From positions 1-45,754 of the forward strand of contig DATJYL010000075.1 in assembly GCA_035499655.1 (NCBI GenBank): a DNA stretch of 45,754 nucleotides, read 5' to 3'. Under the pieces are notes generated by a model, which had not been told where the DNA came from, did not search any database, and saw only the letters and a list, made by a program, of their open reading frames with translations. A program made the translations under genes and the position numbers. This DNA comes from Pirellulales bacterium. Its GTDB lineage: Bacteria; Planctomycetota; Planctomycetia; Pirellulales; JADZDJ01. This document shows, piece by piece, positions 4,022 to 30,711 of this stretch (within the stretch, counting starts at the first letter, position 1; every line of letters starts with the position of its first letter).

Positions 4022-5806
4022 TTAATGCTTCATCCACGGATGGTTATACAGTAAGTACATCAGGCCAAAAACAACTACCGGTACTAATGCAAAGAAAATT
4101 ATCATCCGCGCGGTTCGCCATTTGGTTTTCCAGACCACTGGCGGCCGCAAGCGTTCGTGCCGGCCGGTTAGGGGCACGTTGTCCGGCGCGTCTAAATCGG
4201 CTTTCATTTCCGCCGCCGAAGCGTAACGCTTGTCCGGATCTTGCTCCATCGCGTGCAGAATGATTTCTTCCAAGTGCGGCGAAAGCTCCTTGTTCCGTTT
4301 GCGCGGAGCGATTGGGTCGCCCCCCAGCCGCGCGTTCATAATCAAGTATGGGTTCGCGCCGTCAAACGGCGGGCTGCCGGTCACCATTTCGTACAACATC
4401 GCGCCTAAAGCGTAAATGTCGGTGCGGGCGTCGCCGCGCTTCCCTTTGACCTGCTCCGGCGCCATGTAATCGGGCGTGCCCATCGATGGGGAAAATCCAG
4501 CGAACGTCAATCGCCGCAACCCTTCGGCCTTGGCGATGCCAAAATCCATAATCCGCAGGCCGCCTCCCTTCAGCAGCATAATATTTTCCGGCTTCAAGTC
4601 CCGGTGTACGATGCCTTTGTCGTGCATGTAAGCCAGCGCGTCGCAAATTTGGCTGGTAATTTTTAAGGCATCGGCCACAGGCATCACGCCGTAACTGCGC
4701 ATGACTTGCCGCAGTGTTTTTCCTTCCAGCAATTCCATGGCGATGTACGGCCGGCTTTTTTTCCCGTCCACGGGAATCATGCGCAAGATATTCGGGTGCT
4801 GCAGCATCTTGCCGATTTCTTCTTCTCGCTGGAACCGTGAGAAGAAGGCCGGATCGCTTTCGAACTGCATGAACGGCACTTTCACGGCCACAATTTCGCC
4901 AGTTTGGCGGTCGAGCGCTTTGAAAATCGAAGCCATGCCGCTGCGGCTGATCACGCTTTGCAGCTCGAAGCGGTCGTCCAGCACTTGGCCGAGTTCGGTT
5001 TCTGTCATGGCTGGAGGAGGCTCATCATAAACCGGCAATCCGCGGTAGTAACGCACCTGAGTTACACTGTCGATCACCGCCACTTGCACTGATAAATTGT
5101 CGCTGGTTTTGCGCCGCTCGGCCAGCTCGATCAATTGCTTGCACGCTTCTTCCGGCGTGGCGTGCGTGACAATTTCCAAAATTTCATCGTCGGTGATGCA
5201 GGCGTACAATCCATCGGAGCATTGCACCAAATAATCGCCGCGGTTCACCGTGCGGGTGTAAAAATCAACTTGAACTGTCGGCTCCTTGCCGATGCTGCGG
5301 GTCAGCACGCAGCGCATTTCGCTCGTGGCCGCCTCCAACGGCGAGAGTAATCCCATTTTGACTTGCGAGGCCGCATAATTGTGGTCGGCGGTCACCTGCT
5401 CGATGCGACCATTTTGAATCAGGTATACACGGCAATCGCCAACGTGACCTATCGTCAGTTCGTCATGACGAAATATCGAAACGGTCAGCGTCGTGGCCAT
5501 GCGACCCACGCCGCGGTTCGTCATGCCCCGGTCGTACACCGCCACATTGGCGGCCGTGATCATTTTCCACAGAACTTGCCTGGCAGGAGTCTCCGGCTTG
5601 ACTTCCAAAAACCGTCGCAACGCCACTTCCACGGCCAATTGGCTGGCCTGCTCCCCATCGCCGTGGCCACCGACGCCATCGGCCAGGGCCAACACCGTTC
5701 CCCGAGTTATACGGTCTTCTTCATTTTCGGGCTCCCAATGCCCCACCCAGTCTTCGTTGTTTGGGCGTGGGCCCATCGACGACTGTTGGGCGAACGTCAA
5801 CTTCAT
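4022..5806 (-). CDS. Bifunctional PP2C phosphatase / Ser-Thr protein kinase, membrane anchored
   Basis: A 594-residue fusion of two opposing enzymes. Residues 1-245 form a PP2C-type phosphatase with metal-binding Asp residues in LADGVGGHGDGE (D43), GHVGDCRVYL (D124), CSDGL (D198) and SDNLSV (D236). Residues about 280-545 form a Hanks-type kinase: Lys309 in VAVKV, HRDLKPEN (D403), DFGIAK (D421) and TPDYMAPEQ. The glycine-rich loop is degenerate (SRSGMASIF). One transmembrane helix at about 568-587 anchors it, leaving a very short tail outside, so there is no sensor domain. It is divergent from the APC permease across a 655-bp gap. In Pseudomonas a protein of this architecture sits beside nitrate/nitrite assimilation genes, and the neighbouring nitrogen transporters here suggest a similar link. 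That link is inference; the enzyme families are clear. Confidence 0.92.
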   Translation of the reverse strand: MKLTFAQQSSMGPRPNNEDWVGHWEPENEEDRITRGTVLALADGVGGHGDGEQASQLAVEVALRRFLEVKPETPARQVLWKMITAANVAVYDRGMTNRGVGRMATTLTVSIFRHDELTIGHVGDCRVYLIQNGRIEQVTADHNYAASQVKMGLLSPLEAATSEMRCVLTRSIGKEPTVQVDFYTRTVNRGDYLVQCSDGLYACITDDEILEIVTHATPEEACKQLIELAERRKTSDNLSVQVAVIDSVTQVRYYRGLPVYDEPPPAMTETELGQVLDDRFELQSVISRSGMASIFKALDRQTGEIVAVKVPFMQFESDPAFFSRFQREEEIGKMLQHPNILRMIPVDGKKSRPYIAMELLEGKTLRQVMRSYGVMPVADALKITSQICDALAYMHDKGIVHRDLKPENIMLLKGGGLRIMDFGIAKAEGLRRLTFAGFSPSMGTPDYMAPEQVKGKRGDARTDIYALGAMLYEMVTGSPPFDGANPYLIMNARLGGDPIAPRKRNKELSPHLEEIILHAMEQDPDKRYASAAEMKADLDAPDNVPLTGRHERLRPPVVWKTKWRTARMIIFFALVPVVVFGLMYLLYNHPWMKH

Positions 5807-6461: not shown

Positions 6462-8387
6462 ATGTCTGCTGATCCTTCCTCTGGCCCGGTAATGAAAAAG
6501 ACGCTCGGTCTCACCGGGCTAACGATGAACGCCATGGCGCTCATCGCCCCAGGCGCGTTTTTGTGGTTGACGTTGGTAGAACAGTCCCAATATGGGGCTC
6601 CCACGGCCGGGTGCGCAATTTGGTTTGGCATTTTCGCAGCCGTTTTGCTGTGTTATGCCACTGCCATTTCTTATGCCGAATTGTCCAAGCTTTATCCCGG
6701 AGCGGGTTCATCATATTTTTTTGCCGAACAAGCATTTCTCTCGAAAACCCATGCCTATAAATTCGCACGACTTGCCAAATTCGTCATCGGCTGGGCAAGC
6801 CACTTATATTACTGGGTTTATCCAGGGCTGATGGTAGGGGTTACCGGTATTTTCATCGGTTACATCGCGGGTACGCTGATGCCCGACACGTTCAGCAATG
6901 CCGTCGGCAGCCCAACATTGATGATTGGTTTCTGCGTCTTTTTCTCAGCCTTTGTTTCCTACATTGCCTATCGCGGAGTCGTTGGTTCCACGGGAGTCAA
7001 TATCGCAGTCAACGTCATTCAAATCACGGCGCTGTTGATTTTCTCAGTCATTGCCATTGGTTACCGATTGAATCATGGGGAAGGCTCCGTCGGTTGGACT
7101 TTAGATCCCGATGGTTACCCCATCAATTACAACATTGCCAATGATAAAGATGGCAAACCGATTAAGGATGATAAAACCGGGCACTATCAACCGGATGTGG
7201 TCAAGGACGACAAGGGCAACCCGGTCATGGACAAAGACGGCAAACCGCAGATTTCGTACTTGACTCTCAACTACGCAGGACAAGGTTTCCAACAGTTACC
7301 ATCGGACCCGAACGATCCCAAAAGTGAAAAGCAAGATACGTTCCAATTTCACGAATCTGCCGTGTCGGTAATCGCGCCTCATCTAAGCGGCGAGCATGGC
7401 AATCCTACATTTTTGGTCGTACAAGCCTGCATCGCAATTCTCATCCTAGTGGGCTTTGAATCGGTCACTTCGTTGGGCGAAGAAGCCAAGGATGCCAAGC
7501 GCGATATTCCCCGCGCGGTGTTGTTGGCGTTGTTCGTTCAAGGCGTAATTTGTTACTTATTCGAATACTTTGCCGCGGGCTACTTCCTCAATCCGGCTTA
7601 CCCGATTACAACTGCCGCAGGTTCAAGCGCCCCCTTAGCAGATATGATGTTGTTGGCCGGAACTTGGTTCTTTGGCAGCGCCAGTGCTGCAAAAACCTTC
7701 ATGTTGGTCGAAGCGGTCACCGTGTTCCTGGCTTTGATTGGCACAACTCTGTCGTGCATGAATACCGGCGCGCGAGTGACTTATGCCATGGGTCGCGATG
7801 ACGAAGTTCCTTCCCATTTCGGCATGTTGCACGGGAAAAATCTGACGCCACATCGGGCCATCTGGACGCTCTGTTTTGTTTCAATGTTCTTTGGGATTAT
7901 TACCGTTCTGTGGTATTTATGCGGACCTGGGGCCACCGCAGGGCTCGATACCGCTCTGTCGGACACCCAGAAGGCCAGCATCTGGTATCCAGCCTTTTTG
8001 GTGCATTCGTTCGCAGCAGCGCAGAATATTCCGAACAGCTTCCTGATCGTCACTTTGGTAAGCAACTTCGGAACATTCATGCTCTATGGCCTCACCTGCT
8101 TTATCGCCATTGTGGCCTTTAGAGAGCATCACACTTTCAGCGGAATTAAACACATGTTTATTCCGCTGTTTGGCATATTCGCTAATTTGGCGTGCATGGT
8201 GTGTTACCTCGTAGGGCCATTCTTTATCGCGGGAATGAGCAAGCTGGAGCCTTTTATCGCCTTGGGGGTCGCTGGAGTCTGGGGCGTTTATGGCGTCTTC
8301 TACTTCGTCACTTCCGGCAAGAAGAAAGGCAAAACATCGTTTGTCAGTTCCGCCGATGCAGCTTCTCGCAAGGTTTCCCCTGCCTAA
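6462..8387 (+). CDS. APC-superfamily amino acid permease with Asp-rich loop insertion
   Basis: A 641-residue secondary transporter of the amino acid-polyamine-organocation superfamily. It opens with KKTLGLTGLTMNAMALIAPGAF, the usual first helix with its unwound Gly segment, and continues with about 12 helices including GFESVTSLGEEAKDAKRDIP, the conserved APC loop. Between residues about 205 and 317 lies a hydrophilic insertion with three copies of a DKDGKP-like motif (about 228-233, 249-254, 257-262) and many Asp/Lys residues, resembling DxDG calcium-binding loops. Codon use resembles the neighbours. A sigma-54 promoter lies about 330 bp upstream and a strong terminator follows. The substrate is not identifiable; nitrogen-regulated amino acid uptake is the likely role (inference). 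Confidence 0.85.
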   Translation: MSADPSSGPVMKKTLGLTGLTMNAMALIAPGAFLWLTLVEQSQYGAPTAGCAIWFGIFAAVLLCYATAISYAELSKLYPGAGSSYFFAEQAFLSKTHAYKFARLAKFVIGWASHLYYWVYPGLMVGVTGIFIGYIAGTLMPDTFSNAVGSPTLMIGFCVFFSAFVSYIAYRGVVGSTGVNIAVNVIQITALLIFSVIAIGYRLNHGEGSVGWTLDPDGYPINYNIANDKDGKPIKDDKTGHYQPDVVKDDKGNPVMDKDGKPQISYLTLNYAGQGFQQLPSDPNDPKSEKQDTFQFHESAVSVIAPHLSGEHGNPTFLVVQACIAILILVGFESVTSLGEEAKDAKRDIPRAVLLALFVQGVICYLFEYFAAGYFLNPAYPITTAAGSSAPLADMMLLAGTWFFGSASAAKTFMLVEAVTVFLALIGTTLSCMNTGARVTYAMGRDDEVPSHFGMLHGKNLTPHRAIWTLCFVSMFFGIITVLWYLCGPGATAGLDTALSDTQKASIWYPAFLVHSFAAAQNIPNSFLIVTLVSNFGTFMLYGLTCFIAIVAFREHHTFSGIKHMFIPLFGIFANLACMVCYLVGPFFIAGMSKLEPFIALGVAGVWGVYGVFYFVTSGKKKGKTSFVSSADAASRKVSPA

Positions 8388-8430
8388 CTGATTGTCTGAT
8401 GTTACGTTTCGGTGGTTTAACCTAAACTTG

Positions 8431-8475
8431 AGGTGCCACGGGTAGCAATTGCCCGTGGCACCTTTTATGTTTTTA
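8431..8475 (+). terminator. Rho-independent terminator after permease
   Basis: A perfect 12-bp inverted repeat, AGGTGCCACGGG (8431-8442) and CCCGTGGCACCT (8452-8463), with a 9-nt loop, is followed by a T-rich run (ttttatgttttt). It lies 43 bp after the permease stop and separates the permease from the amt1 promoter. Confidence 0.88.
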
Positions 8476-8561
8476 TAGAGGCAGTTTCCACCGTACACGT
8501 TCTTCCCGGTGGAAGATGCTTAGTTCCCCAAGCGACCGTGCCAAAGGCGAACCTGCCGTGG

Positions 8562-8577
8562 TGGAAGTACAATTGCA
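8562..8577 (+). promoter_or_regulatory. Sigma-54 (-24/-12) promoter of amt1
   Basis: TGGAAGTACAATTGCA keeps the invariant GG (8563-8564) and GC (8575-8576) with exact 10-bp spacing and a full TTGCA -12 element. The -24 flank is weaker (AAGT instead of CACG). The predicted transcript would start near 8588, about 46 nt before the amt1 ATG and its GAGGGAG ribosome-binding site. Confidence 0.62.
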
Positions 8578-8633
8578 AAGAGGAACAAATTATCTCGCGG
8601 AAGTGCTGTTTCAAACCGATTGAGGGAGCTTGC

Positions 8634-10166
8634 ATGTTTCAAAGGCGGACCGTTCCTTTATGCGCCGGGTTGTGTCTAGCTTGGGCGCTCATCAATTCAC
8701 CTGCTGCGCTTGCGCAAGATTCCAAATCGCCCATGCCCAGCGCCGCCGCTTCATCGTTTTCGCCGTTCGTCGTTTGGGCGCTCATGGCAGGTTGCCTGAC
8801 ATTGCTCGTGCCCGGGGGCCTCGCGCTGGTTGCCGGCGGCTTGGGACGACCGAAGAATTCCGCGCATCTGTTCGCCGTGAATTTGATGATTGTGCCGTTG
8901 GCCGGCTGTGCGATTTTTTTGTATGGCTTTGCCCTGGGATGGGGAAACCTAGCGGGCGGACTCGCTCCGCCCGGCTGGTCTGCGGGGTTGGACAGCGACA
9001 TGAATCTGCTCAACCACGGCGTAGGCATCGGTTCCGATCCTAACGCCCCCGACATATCAACCAACGGCCTACTAGGCACGAAAGGTTTTGGACTCGCCGG
9101 ATTGAACTCGCCCGCCGTATTAGCATTTTTCTTTTTGATGGCCGCACTTCTGATTGTCGCCGCCGCGATTCCCACCGGCGCCATGGCCGAACGCTGGGCT
9201 TGGCGAAATTTCGTTTTGTATAGTTTTTGGGTGATCGTGCCGCTGGCGCTATTTGCCAACTGGATGTGGGGTGGCGGCTGGCTGGCCCAAATGGGAAAAA
9301 ATTGGAATTTGGGGCACGGCGCCGTCGATTTCGCCGGTTCTGGAGTGATTCACGCCATGGGAGCTGTCATCGGCTTGGCTGGCACCATTTGCATGGGTCC
9401 GCGGCTGGGAAAATTTGTGAATCGCCGGCCACGCGCCATGCCCGGGCACAGCATTCCTTTCGTCATTATCGGCACGCTCATTTTGCTGTTCGCCTGGTTT
9501 GGAATGACAGCGGGCGCCACGCTGGCGGGAACCGATTTGTCGCTCAGCTCGGTCTTCGTGAACACTGCGCTGGGTGGTTTTGGCGGCGCGGTAGGCGCCA
9601 TGTTTTATCTGATGTTTACTGTGAAAAAGCCCGATCCTACGCTCATGTGCAACGGCTTGGTCTCCGGATTGGTGGCGATCAGTGCAGCCTGTGCCTTTGT
9701 CGAACCGTGGGCGGCGCTGGCCATTGGCGCTATCGGCGGTGTGTTGGTCATTATTAGCGTGCTGTTTTGGGATAAGGTCGGCATCGACGATCCCGTCGGT
9801 GCAATCTCCATGCATGGCGTGGCCGGCCTGTGGGGCGTCATTGCCGTCGGTTTGTTTGCCACTGGAAAATTCGGCGCCGGCTGGAACGGCGTGGCCCGCG
9901 ATGATTACGCCAAGCTACCCGGCGGCGTCGATGGTGTCCGCGGGCTGTTTTACGGCGACGGAGGCCAACTTGTGGCGCAGCTTTTAGAAGCCGGCGTGCT
10001 GCTTGTCTTTGGCTTCATCGCCGCGTATGGATTATTTAAACTCAGCGCGCTGGTCACGCCGCTGCGTGTCAGCCGCGATGCGGAACTCCAGGGACTCGAC
10101 GGCAGCGAAATGGGCACCCTAGCATACCCCGATTTCGCGCTCAAAAGCGGAATTTTAGATGCCTGA
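8634..10166 (+). CDS. amt: Ammonium transporter Amt1, coupled to histidine kinase
   Basis: Amt/Mep/Rh-family ammonium channel, 510 residues. The ATG at 8634 is chosen because a GAGGGAG ribosome site (8622-8628) precedes it and because the longer open frame (from 8433) would start inside the upstream terminator. Residues 1-28 form a signal peptide ending ALAQ, as in other bacterial Amts. The twin pore histidines are H240 (GVIHAMG) and H394 (SMHGVAG), and the conserved Asp is D232. The N-terminal half is divergent: the usual MxxGFxxxEAG-type stretch in the first helices is replaced by LVPGGLALVAGG. The stop codon overlaps the start of the following kinase (TGATG), so translation is probably coupled. 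This Amt has no adjacent PII gene, which suggests a sensory rather than purely transport role (inference). Confidence 0.93.
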   Translation: MFQRRTVPLCAGLCLAWALINSPAALAQDSKSPMPSAAASSFSPFVVWALMAGCLTLLVPGGLALVAGGLGRPKNSAHLFAVNLMIVPLAGCAIFLYGFALGWGNLAGGLAPPGWSAGLDSDMNLLNHGVGIGSDPNAPDISTNGLLGTKGFGLAGLNSPAVLAFFFLMAALLIVAAAIPTGAMAERWAWRNFVLYSFWVIVPLALFANWMWGGGWLAQMGKNWNLGHGAVDFAGSGVIHAMGAVIGLAGTICMGPRLGKFVNRRPRAMPGHSIPFVIIGTLILLFAWFGMTAGATLAGTDLSLSSVFVNTALGGFGGAVGAMFYLMFTVKKPDPTLMCNGLVSGLVAISAACAFVEPWAALAIGAIGGVLVIISVLFWDKVGIDDPVGAISMHGVAGLWGVIAVGLFATGKFGAGWNGVARDDYAKLPGGVDGVRGLFYGDGGQLVAQLLEAGVLLVFGFIAAYGLFKLSALVTPLRVSRDAELQGLDGSEMGTLAYPDFALKSGILDA

Positions 10167-11800
10167 TGTCCACAACCAACCCTGACTCACCGGCCTCCTC
10201 CCACACTGCGGCTCTGCAGAAAGCCCCGTTTTCTTGGAAGCGTTATGCGGCCACGGCGGCGGTCATTGCCAGTTGCGGCCTGCTGGGCTGGCTCAGTTAC
10301 AACGTCGGATTGACGACAACCAACATCGCCATGATTTTCCTGGCGGCGGTGGCGGTCGTAGCGGCACGCTTTGGACGCGGGCCCGCCATTGCCGCGGCGG
10401 TTCTCGGAGTATTGGTTTTCGATTATTTCTTCGTCGTGCCGCTTTTTACTTTTGCCCGCAGCGACACACAGTACATCGTCACGTTGGGAGTGATGTTGGG
10501 CATCGGCATTTTGATTAGCGAGCTTACGGCCCGGCTGCAAGCGCAATTGCGGACCTCGCAACAGCACGAACGCCAAATGGAGGAACTGTTTCTTGCTTCT
10601 CAGCAACAGGAGCGCCGCACCGCGCAACTCTATCGTATGACACGCCAATTAAGCGAGCTGGCCGGGACGGAGTACTTAATTCCCCGGGCTGGCCGCCAAT
10701 TGATCGAGGCATTTGCTGGCGAAGTCGTGTTATCTTTGTCCAAGGCTGACGGCGAATTACAAATTCAATTTGGCGCCGAAACCGCTCTGGCCGGCAATGC
10801 GGCTGACATCTCCGCCGCGCAATGGGTGGCGGAAAACCGCTGCACCGCAGGGCTGGGGACCGATCTGCTTCCCAACGCCATGGCCATTTGGATACCCTTA
10901 ATCGGTTCCCAGCGCCTGATGGGTGTGATGGGAGTTCGGCCCGGCGACGTTCGTCGGTTGTTCGATGTTGAAGAGCGCCGCATGTTGGAAACCTGCGCCA
11001 GCCTGATCGCCTTGGCCATTGAGCGCGATCAATCTCGCCTGGAAGTTCAACAGGCTCAATTGCGTGTCCAGGCGGAGGAGTTTCGCAATGCGCTGCTCAG
11101 TTCGGTCTCGCACGATTTGCGCACGCCGTTGGCGATGATTGCCGTCACCGCCGCCAGCTTGCTGGACAATTCGACCGACCCTAATTCCGCTGGCAGCCGC
11201 GAAATGCTGCAAACCATGGTCGATGAATCGCATCGCTTGTCGCGACAGGTCGATAATCTGTTGGAAATGGCCCGCCTGAATTCAGGTACACTCGTGCTCA
11301 ATTGCGAGTGGCAAGTGCTGGAAGAACTGGTGGGGGTGGTCCTGGCCCGCATGCGCGGAGAACTTCAGAAGCATACCGTACAGGTGAATATTGCCCGTGA
11401 TTTCCCCCTGCTTTGGGTCGCTGCCGAACTCATCGAGCAAGTTCTCGTCAATTTGCTGGAAAATGCTGCACGCTACACGCCGCCAGGCACACGCATCGAA
11501 ATCACTGCCCATCGCCAAGGCGATGTCGCCGAAATCTGCGTGGCAGACAACGGGCCAGGCCTGTCACCCGGTAGTGAAACCAAAATATTCAATAAATTTT
11601 ATCGCGGCTCGCGAATTGTGGCTGACGGCCAGCGCGGCATCGGCTTAGGCTTACCCATCTGCCAAGGTATCGTGCATGCCCACTCGGGGAAAATCCGCAC
11701 CGCCAATCGGACGGCCGGCGGCGCCGAATTTATTATTACGCTGCCCTGCCCACCGCGGAGCCCGCAAGCTAATCTAATGGTAGAGGAATCACTCGCCTGA
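10166..11800 (+). CDS. KdpD-like sensor histidine kinase lacking the KdpD N-terminal domains
   Basis: A 544-residue sensor kinase matching only the C-terminal half of KdpD. Residues about 28-120 form the DUF4118 four-helix membrane domain (NVGLTTTNIAMIFLAAV, then FDYFFVVPLFTFA). A predicted coiled coil follows at about 120-165 and a GAF-like domain at about 165-290. The dimerisation/phosphoacceptor motif is SVSHDLRTPL with H316, followed by the ATPase motifs NLLENAARYTPPGT, DNGPGL and GIGLGLPI. The KdpD ATP-binding and universal-stress-type sensor domains are absent, and no kdpFABC genes are nearby. The ATG shares its A with the amt1 stop codon. Its input is therefore likely to come from Amt1 or from the membrane domain itself (inference). 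The partner regulator is 38 bp downstream. Confidence 0.92.
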   Translation: MSTTNPDSPASSHTAALQKAPFSWKRYAATAAVIASCGLLGWLSYNVGLTTTNIAMIFLAAVAVVAARFGRGPAIAAAVLGVLVFDYFFVVPLFTFARSDTQYIVTLGVMLGIGILISELTARLQAQLRTSQQHERQMEELFLASQQQERRTAQLYRMTRQLSELAGTEYLIPRAGRQLIEAFAGEVVLSLSKADGELQIQFGAETALAGNAADISAAQWVAENRCTAGLGTDLLPNAMAIWIPLIGSQRLMGVMGVRPGDVRRLFDVEERRMLETCASLIALAIERDQSRLEVQQAQLRVQAEEFRNALLSSVSHDLRTPLAMIAVTAASLLDNSTDPNSAGSREMLQTMVDESHRLSRQVDNLLEMARLNSGTLVLNCEWQVLEELVGVVLARMRGELQKHTVQVNIARDFPLLWVAAELIEQVLVNLLENAARYTPPGTRIEITAHRQGDVAEICVADNGPGLSPGSETKIFNKFYRGSRIVADGQRGIGLGLPICQGIVHAHSGKIRTANRTAGGAEFIITLPCPPRSPQANLMVEESLA

Positions 11801-11838
11801 ACGCGCTCAAATCAAACTTTTCAACACTCGCGAATTCC

Positions 11839-12546
11839 ATGTCCGCCAGCATTTCCTCGCCGCCGCTGGTCCTGTTGGTGGAAGACGAAGCGCCCATGCG
11901 GAAATTTCTACGGGCGTTTCTGTCCGGCGCCGGTTATCGCATTGAGGAAGCCAGTGCGGGCGAGCAAGCGCTGTCAGTGGCTGCGCAAAATCCGCCCGAC
12001 GTCGTGATATTGGATCTCGGTCTCCCAGACATGGATGGCCAGGAAGTGCTTCGCAAACTGCGCGATTGGCTCAAATCCCCGATTATCGTCCTGTCGGTCC
12101 GCAATCAGGATGCGCAAAAAATCATGGCATTGGACCACGGCGCTGACGATTACCTGCAAAAGCCGTTCAGTACCGGCGAATTGCTCGCCCGCATTCGCGT
12201 GGCCTTGCGTCATAACGCCTACGTACAAAACGGCAACGAGACGCCAATCTTCGAATCGGGTGATTTGAAGGTTGATCTGTCCGCCCGCCGCGTTGTTCTC
12301 AGCGGCGCTGAAGTGCATCTCACGCGCATGGAATACAATCTGCTCACCACGCTGGTGCGTCACGCCGGAAAAGTGCTGACGCATCAATTTCTGCTGGCGG
12401 AAGTCTGGGGGCCATCGCAGGCTGAAAACACGCAACATTTGCGCGTGTTCATGGCCAGTTTGCGTCGCAAGATCGAAGCCGATCCTGCCCAACCGCATTA
12501 CTTGCTTACGGAGCAAGGCGTCGGATACCGGCTGGCGAGCGAATGA
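11839..12546 (+). CDS. KdpE-like OmpR-family response regulator
   Basis: A 235-residue two-component regulator. The receiver domain spans residues about 9-125, with acidic pocket VEDE (residues 14-17), phosphoacceptor D59 in VVILDLGLPDMDG, and the conserved Lys in DYLQKPF. The DNA-binding domain is a winged helix of the OmpR/PhoB type at about 137-235, with the typical recognition segment HLRVFMASLRRKIEADP and wing YLLTEQGVGYRL. Its overall sequence is closest in style to KdpE. It lies 38 bp after the kinase and is presumably cotranscribed with amt1 and the kinase. As an OmpR-type protein it is not a sigma-54 activator, so it does not explain the upstream sigma-54 promoters. Its targets are unknown. 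Confidence 0.93.
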   Translation: MSASISSPPLVLLVEDEAPMRKFLRAFLSGAGYRIEEASAGEQALSVAAQNPPDVVILDLGLPDMDGQEVLRKLRDWLKSPIIVLSVRNQDAQKIMALDHGADDYLQKPFSTGELLARIRVALRHNAYVQNGNETPIFESGDLKVDLSARRVVLSGAEVHLTRMEYNLLTTLVRHAGKVLTHQFLLAEVWGPSQAENTQHLRVFMASLRRKIEADPAQPHYLLTEQGVGYRLASE

Positions 12547-12647: not shown

Positions 12648-14300
12648 ATGGCTCGCGACCGTCATCTTCGACATCCTCCTGTTGCCGTGGCGCCAACGTC
12701 ACGGTTGCCAGTTTCTTCGCACAGCGTAATTATCGGCGTTGGTATAGTCATCGTGTGTTATGCAGTGTCGGTTTTGGTCGGCTGGCCGCAGCACGCCACG
12801 ACCTTAATCGTCAACGAAATGCACGCCGCTGCGGCATCAGCAGCGCAGCCCGATGCTAAAATCAATGTCGCGGGAACCAAGGCTGCGGCCCACGATCAAC
12901 AAGCGGAACTCACACCGCCACCGCTTTACACGGTCCTCCCCTTCGTGCTCATGTTGGCGGCCATTGCCATCCTCCCGCTTTTGCGCGGAGCCAAACATTG
13001 GTGGGAAAGCAATCTCCACCGCTTTTACGTGGCCGGCGGTTTGGCCGCCCTTACCGTGTTGTATTACGCGCTGGCACATCAATATCCCATCATCGGCCAC
13101 TTTCCCGCTCAGCACGTGGCGCCTTTTGTCCCCGACGAATCATTCCACATAGGCACCGTCAGCAATCTGCTAGCCAATGCGATATTGAACGAATACGTCC
13201 CGTTCATGGTCCTGTTGACAAGTCTGTACACTATCAGCGGCGGCATTCGCATCGAGGGCGATCTGCCAGCTCACCCATTCACCAATACGGTCTTTTTGGC
13301 GATCGGGGCACTGTTGGCCAGTTTCATCGGCACCACGGGCGCGGCAATGGTCCTTATCCGCCCGTTACTGGAAACAAATCGAGAGCGCAAGCATGTCACG
13401 CACACCGTGGTGCTGTTCACGTTCATCGTTTGCAACTGCGGGGGTTGTTTGTTGCCCCTGGGCGATCCACCCCTGTTCCTCGGATACTTGCAAGGCGTGC
13501 CGTTTTTGTGGACCCTCACGCTGTGGAAAGAGTGGCTCTTCATCAATGGGTGCCTCTTGGCCATCTATTGGGCCTGGGACAGTTACTATTTTTATCCGCA
13601 CGAGGATGCGCGCGACATCGCTCGTGATGAATCCCGAGTGCATCGCTTTCGTTTTGCAGGCTGGCAATTGAATGGGCTGTTGCTGTTGGGTGTCATCCTA
13701 GCGGTGGCCTTTCTCGATCCCAGCAAAGCCCTTCCCGGCACCGATTGGCATCCCTGGCTCTACTTGCGCGAAGTGGTTCAGCTAGGGCTGCTGACGCTGT
13801 CATTGCTGCTGGGTTCGGCCCACACCCGCAAAATGAACGATTTCAATTTCGCAGCCATTATCGAAGTCGCGGTGCTCTTTTTCGGCATTTTCATTTGCAT
13901 GCAGCCGGCGCTGCAAATTTTGAACGCCCGCGGAGTTGAGCTCGGTTTGAATAATCCCTACAAATTCTTTTGGGGCACCGGAACGCTTTCGTCGTTCCTC
14001 GACAATGCGCCCACGTATTTGGTGTTTTTCCAAACCGCAAACGCCATGACCACCGCTCCCGGCCACGGCATTTTAGCACTGCAAAGCGGGCAATTCATCC
14101 GTGAAGATCTGTTGGCCGCCATCAGTCTGGGCGCGGTGTTTATGGGCTCGATGACCTACATCGGCAACGGCCCCAATTTCATGGTCAAATCGATCGCCGA
14201 ATCCTGGGGCGTGCGAATGCCTAGCTTTTTCGGCTACATGGTCTACAGTTGTGCCATCCTGCTGCCGTTGCTAGTGCTGTTAAACGTGTTTTTCTTATAA
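12648..14300 (+). CDS. Sodium:proton antiporter-like carrier (IT superfamily, NhaD/ArsB type)
   Basis: A 550-residue polytopic membrane protein of the ion-transporter superfamily. A first hydrophobic helix at about 26-46 is followed by an Ala-rich external stretch and then roughly a dozen helices. Family-like re-entrant segments are visible: ANAILNEYVPFMVLLTSLYT, GTTGAAMVLIRPLL, NCGGCLLPLGDPPLFLG, TGTLSSFLDNAPTYL and YIGNGPNFMVKSIAE. These repeated NxP/GTT-like loops bind the coupling ion in this superfamily. It follows the response regulator by 101 bp in the same direction, so it may belong to the amt1 transcript or be a target of that regulator. The exchanged ions cannot be read from sequence; Na+/H+ is the usual annotation, and an organic-acid or NH4+-related role remains possible. 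Confidence 0.82.
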   Translation: MARDRHLRHPPVAVAPTSRLPVSSHSVIIGVGIVIVCYAVSVLVGWPQHATTLIVNEMHAAAASAAQPDAKINVAGTKAAAHDQQAELTPPPLYTVLPFVLMLAAIAILPLLRGAKHWWESNLHRFYVAGGLAALTVLYYALAHQYPIIGHFPAQHVAPFVPDESFHIGTVSNLLANAILNEYVPFMVLLTSLYTISGGIRIEGDLPAHPFTNTVFLAIGALLASFIGTTGAAMVLIRPLLETNRERKHVTHTVVLFTFIVCNCGGCLLPLGDPPLFLGYLQGVPFLWTLTLWKEWLFINGCLLAIYWAWDSYYFYPHEDARDIARDESRVHRFRFAGWQLNGLLLLGVILAVAFLDPSKALPGTDWHPWLYLREVVQLGLLTLSLLLGSAHTRKMNDFNFAAIIEVAVLFFGIFICMQPALQILNARGVELGLNNPYKFFWGTGTLSSFLDNAPTYLVFFQTANAMTTAPGHGILALQSGQFIREDLLAAISLGAVFMGSMTYIGNGPNFMVKSIAESWGVRMPSFFGYMVYSCAILLPLLVLLNVFFL

Positions 14301-14753
14301 AATAGAAATCTCGAATCAGACTCGTCCGCTGGCCGATTCGCCGACAACGATGTCTTCGGCCGCACTTTTCCAACGGGCTTGGGCTCGCTTCCTACTTCCA
14401 ACATTCTCCTCCCTACTTCATACATCCATTTCAGTCCGTGCGAAGATTTCATAAACTCACTTCGCGATCGCATAAATACTCTATAAATTTGCCAATCTTT
14501 CCGGCAATCACCGCTTCGCAGCGTAGCATTTCTGTTTTTCATGCCGCGCACTCGCGCATGCAATTTTTTTATCGCTGCGCATTCCTAAGCTAGCGGTCAG
14601 CAAGCAGTTGCAAGCGTTCGTTATGAATTGTTTGTGCAGCGCTGCGCTCTGGTACAGCGATTGCAAATCGGCACGCAGCCTTTGATAGGTCGACGCCCAT
14701 TAATCGCATTGTGGTGTGCGCTGCGCACGGACTTTTTATCCGAGGAGAATGTC
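14301..14753. other. Intergenic region upstream of amt2
   Basis: The 453 bp between the antiporter and amt2 contain no convincing gene. A loose pyrimidine-rich repeat with cctacttc-like units lies at about 14388-14430. A GC-rich near-palindrome (tgccgcgcactcgcgcatgca, about 14542-14562) lies about 90 bp upstream of the sigma-54 promoter, where an activator site would be expected, but it was not matched to a known operator. The sigma-54 promoter is at 14650-14665. Confidence 0.5.
14650..14665 (+). promoter_or_regulatory. Sigma-54 (-24/-12) promoter of amt2
   Basis: TGGTACAGCGATTGCA matches TGGCACG-N4-TTGCA with only two deviations in the -24 flank. The GG (14651-14652) and GC (14663-14664) are spaced by exactly 10 bp. 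Transcription would start near 14676, about 78 nt before the ATG at 14754. This excludes the longer open frame that begins at 14628. Confidence 0.75.
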
Positions 14754-16490
14754 ATGTCGAACAGGCGGAAACAGCATTTGTTAGGAGAACGGCGGATGAC
14801 TTACGCGGAAAAATTTTTCCGCTTTCGTCAACGTTTGAAAGATCCCGAGTGGCGGCGTTACGGCAAGCTGCTGTTTGCCGGCAAGTTTCTGGGCATCGCG
14901 ATGGTGTTTGCAGCGATGATCGGCGTTCCCACGCTAGTGCGGGAACTTCCCAAAATGATTTGCGGCACGGCCCAGGCGCAAGATGCAAAACCCGCAGATC
15001 AATCGGCCGCACCCGCGGCTGCTGCCGCCGCGCCGGCTACTCCGCCCGATCCGTTTGAACAACCCATCGCCAAGGCGAAAGACGTTGTTGACCCGGTCAA
15101 CACCGCTTGGACTCTTGTGGCTGCGTATCTGGTGTTCGGCATGCAAGTGGGCTTCACCATGTTGGAAGCCGGTTTTTGTCGCTCACGTGAAACCGTCAAC
15201 GTGCTCATGGAGTGCGTCGTCGACACTTGCTTGTGCGGCTGCTTGTTCTATGCGTTCGGTTACGCTTTCATGTTCGGCCACGGTTGCGGCTTCATCGGCT
15301 GGGGTGATGCCGACGGCCATCCGTGGTGGTTCTTGCAAAACGGACCAGTCACGTATGAAGGAACCGGCGTGGCGTTTTTAGCCCACTGGATTTTCCAATT
15401 CGCATTTGCCGACACCTGCTCCACGATTACCTCCGGGGCCATGATCGGCCGCACTGGTTTCGTGGGCGATTTGCTTTACAGCGTCGGCGTCTCTGGCTTC
15501 ATTTATCCGATCATTGGCCACTGGGCTTGGGGACCGGATGGTTTCTTGGCCACAATGGGCACGCCCGATCCCAGCGGTAAATGGATTTTCCTGCCCGATT
15601 TCGGCATGAATTTCCACGATTTTGCCGGTTCAACGGTGGTACATACCATCGGCGGGTTCATCGCCTTGGCAGGCTCCATCGTGCTGGGTCCGCGGTTGGG
15701 TCGAAAATTCAAACGTGATGGCGGCGGTCCGATGCTGCCTCACGATTTAACGGTCGCCGTAGCGGGCGGTTTGATTCTGTGGTTCGGCTGGTACGGATTT
15801 AATCCCGGAAGCACGCTGTCAGCGATGGATTTTGAAGGCATCGGCCGAGTCTCAGCCAATACCACACTGGCCGCTTGTGCAGCCGGTTTGGGGGCCATGC
15901 TTACCGCCTATATTCCCAGCAAAAAATGGGATGTTAGCTTTACGACAAACGGCTTCCTGGCTGGTTTGGTCGCCATTACTTGTCCGTGCTACTGGGTCAG
16001 CCCGACGGGCGCGGTCATTTTGGGATTCATTGCCGGCATCCTGGTGGTGCTAGGCGTCGAACTGCTCGAATGGCTGCGAATTGACGATCCCATCGGAGCG
16101 GTTCCGGTGCACGGGTTCTGCGGCATTTGGGGCACCTGGTCGCTTGGGTTGTTCGCTTGCGGACAATACTCGGCCGGAGGCAGCGGGCCATTCCCTCCCG
16201 ACGTTTCCGATCCCGCTTCGCACCTTACCGGTTTATTTTATGGCGGCGGTTGGAAAGTGTTTGAAGCCCAGGTCATTGGCAACGGAATCATTACGCTGGC
16301 CACATTTGGCGTGGCAATGATTTTGATGCTGGTCGTCAATGCCACGGGAACGTTGCGGATTTCCAAAGAAGGCGAATTGTACGGACTCGACTTGCACGAG
16401 CACGGTATTTCCGCCTATCCGGAATATGTGCTTTCGAATTGGGCAGCCCCCGGCGGAATGGCCCCAGAAAGCGTGAATAAGCTTTCTTGA
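14754..16490 (+). CDS. amt: Ammonium transporter Amt2
   Basis: Amt-family ammonium channel of 578 residues, larger than typical AmtB (about 400-430). The ATG at 14754 follows a clear GAGGAG ribosome site (14742-14747), and the sigma-54 promoter lies between it and the longer alternative start. The extra length is an N-terminal part: a basic cytoplasmic stretch (1-40), one hydrophobic helix (about 43-62), and an Ala/Pro-rich linker (about 75-105) before the Amt core. The core has MLEAGFCRSRETVNVLM, pore His297 (TVVHTIGG) and His453 (PVHGFCG), and the usual end LHEHGISAYPEYV. The PII gene follows 228 bp downstream, which is the classical amtB-glnK pairing. It is therefore the likely PII-gated transporter, in contrast to Amt1. 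Confidence 0.95.
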   Translation: MSNRRKQHLLGERRMTYAEKFFRFRQRLKDPEWRRYGKLLFAGKFLGIAMVFAAMIGVPTLVRELPKMICGTAQAQDAKPADQSAAPAAAAAAPATPPDPFEQPIAKAKDVVDPVNTAWTLVAAYLVFGMQVGFTMLEAGFCRSRETVNVLMECVVDTCLCGCLFYAFGYAFMFGHGCGFIGWGDADGHPWWFLQNGPVTYEGTGVAFLAHWIFQFAFADTCSTITSGAMIGRTGFVGDLLYSVGVSGFIYPIIGHWAWGPDGFLATMGTPDPSGKWIFLPDFGMNFHDFAGSTVVHTIGGFIALAGSIVLGPRLGRKFKRDGGGPMLPHDLTVAVAGGLILWFGWYGFNPGSTLSAMDFEGIGRVSANTTLAACAAGLGAMLTAYIPSKKWDVSFTTNGFLAGLVAITCPCYWVSPTGAVILGFIAGILVVLGVELLEWLRIDDPIGAVPVHGFCGIWGTWSLGLFACGQYSAGGSGPFPPDVSDPASHLTGLFYGGGWKVFEAQVIGNGIITLATFGVAMILMLVVNATGTLRISKEGELYGLDLHEHGISAYPEYVLSNWAAPGGMAPESVNKLS

Positions 16491-29343: not shown

Positions 29344-29586
29344 GCCCGCAATAGGGGTCTACCTCAGCACCATTCCCGGTCAAGGGCTCTCGCCAGATTC
29401 GCCTTCATTCCTGCAACTTGACCATCCCTCTCCTCGGCGGATAAATTTATCTAATGGCAGAGGATTGCTCCCGGGCGTGCGGATGAAGCCCAGGCAACGA
29501 GCTGCCGTGGGGTCTTTCGTCGAATTGGGCCAGTGACCGACGTCGCAACGTGCAGGCTGCGGCAGGCTCACGGGAAGGGATTTCGT

Positions 29587-30711
29587 ATGCCGCCTCTGGT
29601 GATTGATGTTCGCAGCGCTGAAGATACGCGCGATTGCATTCATCGCGCCGTACAAGCCTTGGCAGAAGGCAAGCTGGTGGCCTTTCCCACCGAAACCGTA
29701 TATGCGCTGGCTACAAGTGCCTTGAACGAAGCTGCGGTAGGCCGCATGTTGAAAACCAAGCGCCGTCCCGCTGGACAGCCCCCCCTGACCTTGGGTATTA
29801 AAAGCGCCGACGAAGCGCTCGATTACGTGCCTCAAATGACGCCGCTGGGCCAACGCCTGGCCCGTCGCTGTTGGCCAGGACCGGTCACCATTGTCTGCGC
29901 TAATCACAATCCAGAAAGCTTGCTCAACCGATTGCCCGAAGGGGTTCGAAAAGCCGTTACTCCCACCGGAACTGTTGGCTTACGTGTGCCGGGTCACAAA
30001 CTTTTTCTCGACACGATGAAACTGATTGTCGGGCCTGTGGCGCTCTCCAGCGCCAACCGGGCGGGTCAACCCGATCCGCTGACTGCGCAGGAAGTCGTAG
30101 CTGGCCTGGGAGACGACGTGGCGTTGGTGCTCGACGATGGTCGCACGCGCTTCGGGCAGTCTTCTTCCGTGATCAAAATCGGCGATCGCGGCTTCGAAGT
30201 CATCCGTGGCGGTGTTGTTTCGGAACAAACACTTTCACGACTGGCCTGCTTCAGCATTGTGTTTGTTTGCACGGGCAATACGTGCCGCAGCCCGATGGCC
30301 GAGGCACTTTGCCGCAACATGCTTGCCGCTCGGCTGCATTGTTCCCCTGATGAACTGCAAGACCGGGGCGTCACGATTTCGTCGGCAGGCATTTCGGCCA
30401 CCATGGGCGGTCGGCCCAGTCCGGAGGCCGTGGCCGTGTTGTCTGAAATCGGCGTCGATTTGTCACATCACGAAAGCCAGCCGTTGGCCGAGCAATTGGT
30501 GCGGCATGCCGACATCATTTGGACTATGACCCGCGGCCATCGCCAGGCCATTTTATCACAGTGGCCTGAAGCGGGTAGCCGCGTACACCTGCTCAGCATG
30601 GATGGGCAAGACATTCCCGATCCGATCGGTTGCTCCGAGGAGCAATATCGACGCTGCGCGGAGCAGATCAAGGCCGAGTTAGATTCGCGGTTAAAAGACT
30701 TGGAGCTGTAA
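29587..30711 (+). CDS. Sua5/YrdC-type protein fused to low-molecular-weight phosphatase (YwlE-like)
   Basis: A 374-residue fusion. The start ATG at 29587 follows an AAGGGA site. Residues 1-215 form a Sua5/YciO/YrdC domain, which makes threonylcarbamoyl-AMP for tRNA t6A, with VAFPTETVYAL, a KRRP segment and SSANRAGQP. Residues 222-374 form a low-molecular-weight phosphatase with P-loop CTGNTCRS (C228-S235) and the acid loop DIPDP (D345). Thr232 within the P-loop corresponds to the Thr that makes Bacillus YwlE an arginine phosphatase; tyrosine phosphatases usually have Ile there. The stop codon touches the rpiB start. In Bacillus the separate genes ywlC (Sua5), ywlE and ywlF (rpiB) lie together in the same order, so this is a fused version of that cluster. 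Confidence 0.92.
   Translation: MPPLVIDVRSAEDTRDCIHRAVQALAEGKLVAFPTETVYALATSALNEAAVGRMLKTKRRPAGQPPLTLGIKSADEALDYVPQMTPLGQRLARRCWPGPVTIVCANHNPESLLNRLPEGVRKAVTPTGTVGLRVPGHKLFLDTMKLIVGPVALSSANRAGQPDPLTAQEVVAGLGDDVALVLDDGRTRFGQSSSVIKIGDRGFEVIRGGVVSEQTLSRLACFSIVFVCTGNTCRSPMAEALCRNMLAARLHCSPDELQDRGVTISSAGISATMGGRPSPEAVAVLSEIGVDLSHHESQPLAEQLVRHADIIWTMTRGHRQAILSQWPEAGSRVHLLSMDGQDIPDPIGCSEEQYRRCAEQIKAELDSRLKDLEL

Follow-up and report, generated by a model that had tools for sequence, protein, structure and literature searches.

The locus described here raises the question of why a histidine kinase and a response regulator related to the potassium-sensing pair KdpD/KdpE lie among ammonium transporter (amt) genes. 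It is located on a contig of 45,754 nucleotides from a Pirellulales bacterium (GenBank assembly GCA_035499655.1, contig DATJYL010000075.1), which is referred to as the window. A preliminary description of the window proposed that the two-component pair is repurposed, and that the product of the first amt gene, Amt1, supplies it with an ammonium signal. We find that the kinase belongs to a clade of truncated KdpD proteins encoded beside amt genes. With a probability of roughly two in three, the pair is a KdpD/KdpE paralogue that goes back to a single loss of the N-terminal KdpD/USP half, was recruited to ammonium-transport gene clusters, and controls them. The genes of the cluster are as follows.

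6462–8387, forward strand: APC-family permease (Pfam AA_permease_2), upstream neighbour of amt1
8634–10166, forward strand: amt1, encoding the Amt-family protein Amt1 of 510 amino acids (PF00909, Ammonium_transp, 277 bits)
10164–10168, forward strand: the sequence TGATG, in which the amt1 stop codon TGA and the kinase start codon ATG have one base in common
10166–11800, forward strand: truncated KdpD-like sensor histidine kinase of 544 amino acids (Pfam, NCBIfam, alignments)
11839–12546, forward strand: KdpE-like response regulator of the OmpR family, 235 amino acids (Pfam Response_reg and Trans_reg_C; NCBIfam)
12648–14300, forward strand: CitMHS_2 family transporter, a putative antiporter (PF16980, 475 bits)
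14748–16490, forward strand: amt2, encoding Amt2, an Amt with a complete pore (Pfam; comparison with Ks-Amt5 and AmtB)

A clade of truncated KdpD kinases beside amt genes

The kinase comprises a DUF4118 domain with four transmembrane helices (TMs; residues 27–133), a GAF-like domain (approximately residues 206–287), a HisKA domain (307–374) and a HATPase_c domain (421–528), as assigned with Pfam. Its best NCBIfam match is KdpD, in an alignment that starts only at model position 402, and the kinase thus lacks the N-terminal half. Neither the N-terminal KdpD domain (PF02702) nor the USP domain was detected with Pfam. The domain search agrees with the preliminary description, according to which only the DUF4118, GAF-like and catalytic parts of KdpD are kept. 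The regulator had rightly been called KdpE-like, KdpE being its best NCBIfam match, and the closest relatives of solved structure are E. coli KdpD (catalytic part) for the kinase and E. coli KdpE for the regulator. The H box of the kinase is intact (SHDLRTPL, residues 315–322, with the phospho-accepting His316), and the N and G boxes align with the KdpD crystal structure, with the catalytic motifs intact. Judged by sequence, the pair appears complete, with the phospho-accepting histidine and the H, N and G boxes in the kinase, and receiver and DNA-binding domains in the regulator.

Related kinases were collected in 1,803 genome searches, with overlapping draws from relatives, the order, the class and the phylum; most of these genomes are draft assemblies. 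Truncated kinases with 49–59% identity were found in three other families (genomes G047, G052 and G154), and a further one in G001, the only relative of the same genus that was found. In the families of G052, G154 and G047 there were no members of the clade beyond these, and a search of genome contigs with the kinase returned only an unrelated Paenibacillus kinase. The five amt-linked truncated kinases span four families of one order; in a tree of 74 kinase cores inferred by maximum likelihood, they group together as a single clade (support 100/99). This clade is nested inside the full-length KdpDs, and nearest to it are the kdp-linked KdpDs of G002 and G111 (98/93). The closest full-length KdpDs (55–58% identity) come after kdpABC in G111, G002, G001 and G090. 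In three of the five genomes (G001, G052 and G154) a full-length KdpD is present as well, and the truncated kinase is therefore a paralogue.

The clade also stands apart in its gene neighbourhoods. Within the fetched stretches, an amt neighbour is present at 5 of 5 clade loci versus 0 of 22 other KdpD-like loci, some of the latter stretches being short or at contig ends, and a kdpABC neighbour at 0 of 5 versus 10 of 22. The Fisher value for the amt linkage (1.2e-5) overstates the evidence, because the five kinases share ancestry and the rows are not phylogenetically independent. The gene order is kinase, CitMHS_2, Amt in G047; kinase, regulator and, directly after, an Amt of the Amt2 type in G052; and kinase, regulator, Amt, PII, Amt, PII in G154. 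In G001 it is APC permease, Amt1, kinase, regulator, another Amt, PII, a second transporter-like gene, CitMHS_2 and RecQ. A CitMHS_2 gene also adjoins amt in G001, G047, G020 and G145. Since the five loci vary in both their flanking genes and their type of Amt, the linkage to amt has survived rearrangement. The view that the pair is repurposed and tied to ammonium transport is thereby borne out; a pair located with kdpFABC or away from amt was looked for, and none was found for this clade.

The five kinases have V327, Q361 and A419 in common, at positions where the 69 other kinases have Gly (100%), Leu (93%) and Asp (100%), respectively. V327 aligns with A271 of HK853, which we take to be a partner-specificity position. 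Clades of similar depth have zero or one diagnostic site, except for another clade of short DUF4118 kinases, distinct from the first and with 11 diagnostic residues (L049, L050, L051 and L052; genomes G043, G014, G077 and G070), whose members have neither an amt nor a kdp neighbour in the stretches read. The short DUF4118 kinases outside the amt-linked clade fall elsewhere in the tree and lack an amt neighbour.

Four of the five genomes have such a regulator, and these four regulators likewise group in a single clade (support of 89 in the Shimodaira–Hasegawa approximate likelihood ratio test). Their clade residues are M20, F27 (alpha1), V87, Q183 and H200 (recognition helix), at positions occupied in twelve KdpEs by I, A/S/T, A, R/K and Y. 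The changes in regulator and kinase are as would be expected if the pair had split from KdpDE and changed its DNA target. In sum, the amt-linked lineage has a single origin, is absent from kdp operons, and differs from its relatives at clade-specific positions of DHp, alpha1 and the recognition helix.

A further KdpE-like regulator (59% identity) precedes an Amt gene in G226 (L189:560-3455); upstream of it the contig ends after 560 bases, in which no kinase was matched.

Proposed role of the pair

In KdpD, K+ outside the cell is sensed via the TM region and K+ inside via the C-terminal cytoplasmic part, including the GAF domain, while the N-terminal half is an atypical serine kinase that acts on KdpB (PMC11018627, PMC5936718). 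We propose that the N-terminal half, with its KdpD (serine kinase/ATP) and USP (c-di-AMP/UspC) parts, was lost once from a KdpD duplicate. The four-TM DUF4118 sensor and the GAF-like domain may read the monovalent-cation status, as in KdpD, here in the form of NH4+ or the NH4+/K+ balance. The kinase would then phosphorylate its own regulator, insulated from any KdpE, and the regulator would control the adjoining amt, PII and CitMHS_2 genes. In the genus of the window, where the pair lies behind amt1, translational coupling would additionally link the dose of kinase to that of the transporter. Given that both sensing parts are kept, that the kinase half directed at the pump is lost, and that amt, PII and CitMHS_2 genes lie alongside, the pair most plausibly reads cation or ammonium status and sets the transcription of the cluster. 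A potassium sensor has thus probably become an ammonium-related one.

Ammonium is not foreign to KdpD systems. In M. smegmatis, NH4+ salts induce kdp in a KdpD-dependent manner (PMC5401905), and a response of kdp to NH4+ salts has also been reported for E. coli, as cited in that paper. Our literature searches brought up no description of a kinase of the KdpD type with a tie to amt.

Several points weigh against control of the clusters by the pair. In E. coli and M. smegmatis, NH4+ is an inducer through salt stress and not a specific ligand, and adjacency to amt is no proof of regulation. The clade has only five members in one order, with a patchy distribution, and in G047 no regulator adjoins the kinase. 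Moreover, a regulator-binding site common to the amt upstream regions was not established, and no motif was found across families. Upstream regions of the window genome and G001 do have conserved pieces in common, and a GTACA-TTGCAAA element lies before amt2, with one match in the window.

The sequence GTACAGCGATTGCAAATCG is common to the regions upstream of amt2 (window 14301–14747) and of the Amt gene that follows the regulator in G001 (L042 8061–8422); being shared though the two Amts differ in type, it is a possible common control element. No Rfam elements were found in the window at gathering thresholds.

How proteins distinguish NH4+ from K+, two ions of almost equal size, has long been asked. 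The move of a KdpD lineage from operons for K+ pumps to operons for ammonium transporters, with few fixed differences and a sister group that is known, offers a natural experiment in the change of ion specificity, and likewise one in how a signalling pair is insulated after duplication. In addition, the lineage points to a candidate ammonium regulator of planctomycetes that is neither NtrBC nor an Amt fusion.

Amt1 and the alternative explanations

The stop codon of amt1 and the start codon of the kinase gene overlap by one base (amt1, 8634–10166; kinase, 10166–11800), as originally described. In G001 the overlap is 8 nt long and in another register (ATGCGTAA); it has therefore been kept between the two species though its length changed. 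Conservation of the overlap in relatives holds within this genus (two genomes), but not outside it, since the kinases of G052, G154 and G047 adjoin amt without an amt-kinase overlap. Between the window genome and G001, nonsynonymous divergence (dN) of the cluster genes is 0.07–0.18 versus a synonymous divergence (dS) of 0.95–1.63. Unusual codon conservation at the 3' end of amt1 was considered as proof of coupling and rejected: 42 of 499 windows of comparison were equally conserved, which is not significant.

The genome has three Amt genes. Alignment of Amt1 with AmtB and Ks-Amt5, an Amt-histidine kinase fusion of Kuenenia (PMC5764959), reveals the pore changes F103L, F215M, N216T and S219A (AmtB numbering), with W148, D160, H168 and H318 kept. 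The orthologue in G001 has the same pore changes and is under purifying selection (dN 0.126, dS 1.01). In AmtB, replacement of F215 by A, H, E, S or W abolishes transport, while S219A alone is harmless (PMC10433425). By analogy, Amt1 may well not transport, although the substitution here, F215M, is not one of those cited for AmtB. The ammonium-site residues of Ks-Amt5, Q24, E31, N47, D50, T51, T109 and T112 (PMC5764959), correspond to P, A, N, I, V, A and T in Amt1, which thus lacks an intramembrane ammonium site of the Ks-Amt5 type, the acidic residues and most others being gone. The comparison of Amt1 with sensor and transporter Amts therefore revealed an altered pore, but not the ammonium site of the sensor.

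Pore changes are also found away from the kinase. An orthologue of the APC permease adjoins an Amt gene in G001, G018, G034 and G149, and the APC-Amt gene pair is present in other families as well, without the kinase. Besides the genus of the window, the APC-linked Amts of G018, G034 and G149 are pore-decayed, and no kinase of the clade was found in these three genomes at the threshold used; pore decay thus goes with the APC neighbour and not with the kinase. Pairs of an APC permease and a pore-decayed Amt (S219 to A, H, R or P; N216 to T) lie at window 6462–10166, L105 7869–12322, L106 5483–9758 and L188 2–2325. Monophyly of these Amts was rejected, as the tree separates three lineages and needs three label changes, and the decay beside the permease seems to have arisen repeatedly, as though the ammonium filter had been lost more than once.

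Two features of the kinase itself are restricted to the genus. The helix between TM4 and the GAF-like domain carries an insertion of 14 residues, or two heptads (approximately residues 129–142), which is present in both kinases of the genus and nowhere else, and which resembles a duplicate of the adjoining SQQQERR stretch. In the TM1-TM2 loop, beside a conserved Asn, both kinases have T/S where KdpDs and the other clade members have D/E (the acid of E. coli KdpD is offset by one residue). From sequence, the insertion and the lost loop acid would fit a kinase dependent on a further membrane protein.

Because of these two features, we keep as a rival the explanation that Amt1 does not transport but serves as a receptor, touching the kinase within the membrane and controlling its activity, which would be the logic of Ks-Amt5 in two proteins. 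The gene overlap, kept in two species despite the change of register, also speaks for it, and so does the presence of F215M in both species, at a position where the changes cited above abolish AmtB transport. However, Amt1 has P, A, I and V in place of Q24, E31, D50 and T51 of Ks-Amt5, and S219A alone leaves AmtB unimpaired. Other clade kinases adjoin Amts with intact pores (G047, G052 and G154) and their genes precede amt (kinase-regulator-amt in G052 and G154), while pore decay recurs in the APC-linked Amts of genomes in which no clade kinase was found at the threshold used. We consider such a receptor unlikely, and rejected it as a general rule on account of the clade kinases that lie before intact-pore amt genes. 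The earlier suggestion that Amt1 is the ammonium-sensing subunit is not supported in that form, with the overlap confined to one genus, the Ks-Amt5 site gone and pore decay tracking APC linkage. It appears rather unlikely, too, that within the genus the KdpD-derived kinase became half of a two-protein ammonium receptor, in which a pore-decayed, non-transporting Amt1 would signal to a co-translated kinase whose cation loop has decayed and whose signalling helix is two heptads longer. Very improbable, in our judgement, is a partnership with Amt2 instead, in which Amt2 would sense ammonium and the kinase would read or regulate it. Amt2 is nearer to Ks-Amt5 (224 bits) than to AmtB (109 bits; 202 bits with another Amt in the PDB, of 644 amino acids), has Q, E, C, D, T, T and S at the seven site positions, and keeps 7 of the 9 site and pore-plug positions compared, the changes being N47 to C and T112 to S; G052, moreover, has the order kinase, regulator, Amt2. 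Yet near the kinases of G001, G047 and G154 no protein of the Amt2 type was seen, the transport pore of Amt2 is complete by alignment, and Amts of this kind that lack a kinase may simply transport.

The kinase could also be the C-terminal half of a split KdpD that controls kdpFABC together with a free KdpD/USP protein, an arrangement with a KdpD/USP chain and a TM/GAF/DHpCA chain having been described (PMC11018627). The absence of kdpFABC noted in the preliminary description holds for the window but not for the genome, which has two kdpA genes (C201 and C23), each with kdpB and kdpC. DUF4118 is found in two proteins of the genome, namely the window kinase and, on C222, a short HWE-like kinase. 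A core of the KdpD type occurs in the window kinase alone, and a free KdpD/USP protein is present (L008:14325-15509). The kdp locus, however, has its own HAMP-PAS kinase and NtrC-type regulator, three genomes with an amt kinase keep a full-length KdpD, and the clade kinase, which has changed at interface positions, was at no locus a neighbour of kdp. We regard a split KdpD as quite improbable, and favour the recruited paralogue that controls ammonium-transport genes.

At the kdp locus on C201 (L008:4935-15509), kdpABC is divergent from the genes for an NtrC-type sigma-54 regulator, the HAMP-PAS kinase and the free KdpD/USP protein, which suggests control of kdp by a sigma-54 system. G052 has a similar set, in which the regulator was not seen. 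The KdpCs of 343 and 358 amino acids (L008:4935-5966 and L009:4651-5727), compared with about 190 in other KdpCs seen, appear to carry a large insertion. In G047, a very decayed Amt (H168F, F215A, S219N and H318C by alignment) adjoins a gene of the RPE65/carotenoid-oxygenase family (L191:5583-7376). In the window, a PP2C phosphatase fused to a Ser/Thr protein kinase (4022–5806) is divergent from the APC-amt1 cluster and is a neighbour in G018 and G034 too, and a low-molecular-weight phosphotyrosine phosphatase domain is fused to a Sua5/YrdC domain at 29533–30708.

Comparison with known systems

The window pair shares with KdpD/KdpE the four-TM DUF4118 domain, the GAF-like domain, HisKA/HATPase with an intact H box and the OmpR-type regulator, and its kinase core is nested in the KdpD tree. 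It differs in the missing KdpD/USP half, in its place beside amt and not kdpFABC, and in the clade-specific residues of DHp, alpha1 and the recognition helix. In the split KdpD (PMC11018627) the kinase has the same TM/GAF/DHpCA layout, and a free KdpD/USP protein coexists with it in our genome; here, however, they are encoded at separate loci, a different kinase and regulator accompany kdp, and a full-length KdpD is retained alongside the amt kinase in other genomes.

Like Ks-Amt5, the locus links a planctomycete Amt protein to a HisKA kinase. In contrast to the fusion, the two are separate reading frames in both species, the kinase has a four-TM sensor of its own, and Amt1 lacks the ammonium site. 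GrtK/GrtR of Burkholderia, an external ammonia sensor (PMC12918730), is likewise a two-component ammonia system without an Amt protein; compared by its description, it is tied to oxalate synthesis instead of amt genes. The amtB-glnK operon under NtrBC resembles the clusters of G001, G154 and others in that an ammonium transporter has a PII neighbour, but the cluster described here holds a KdpDE-type pair in place of the PII-NtrB pair.

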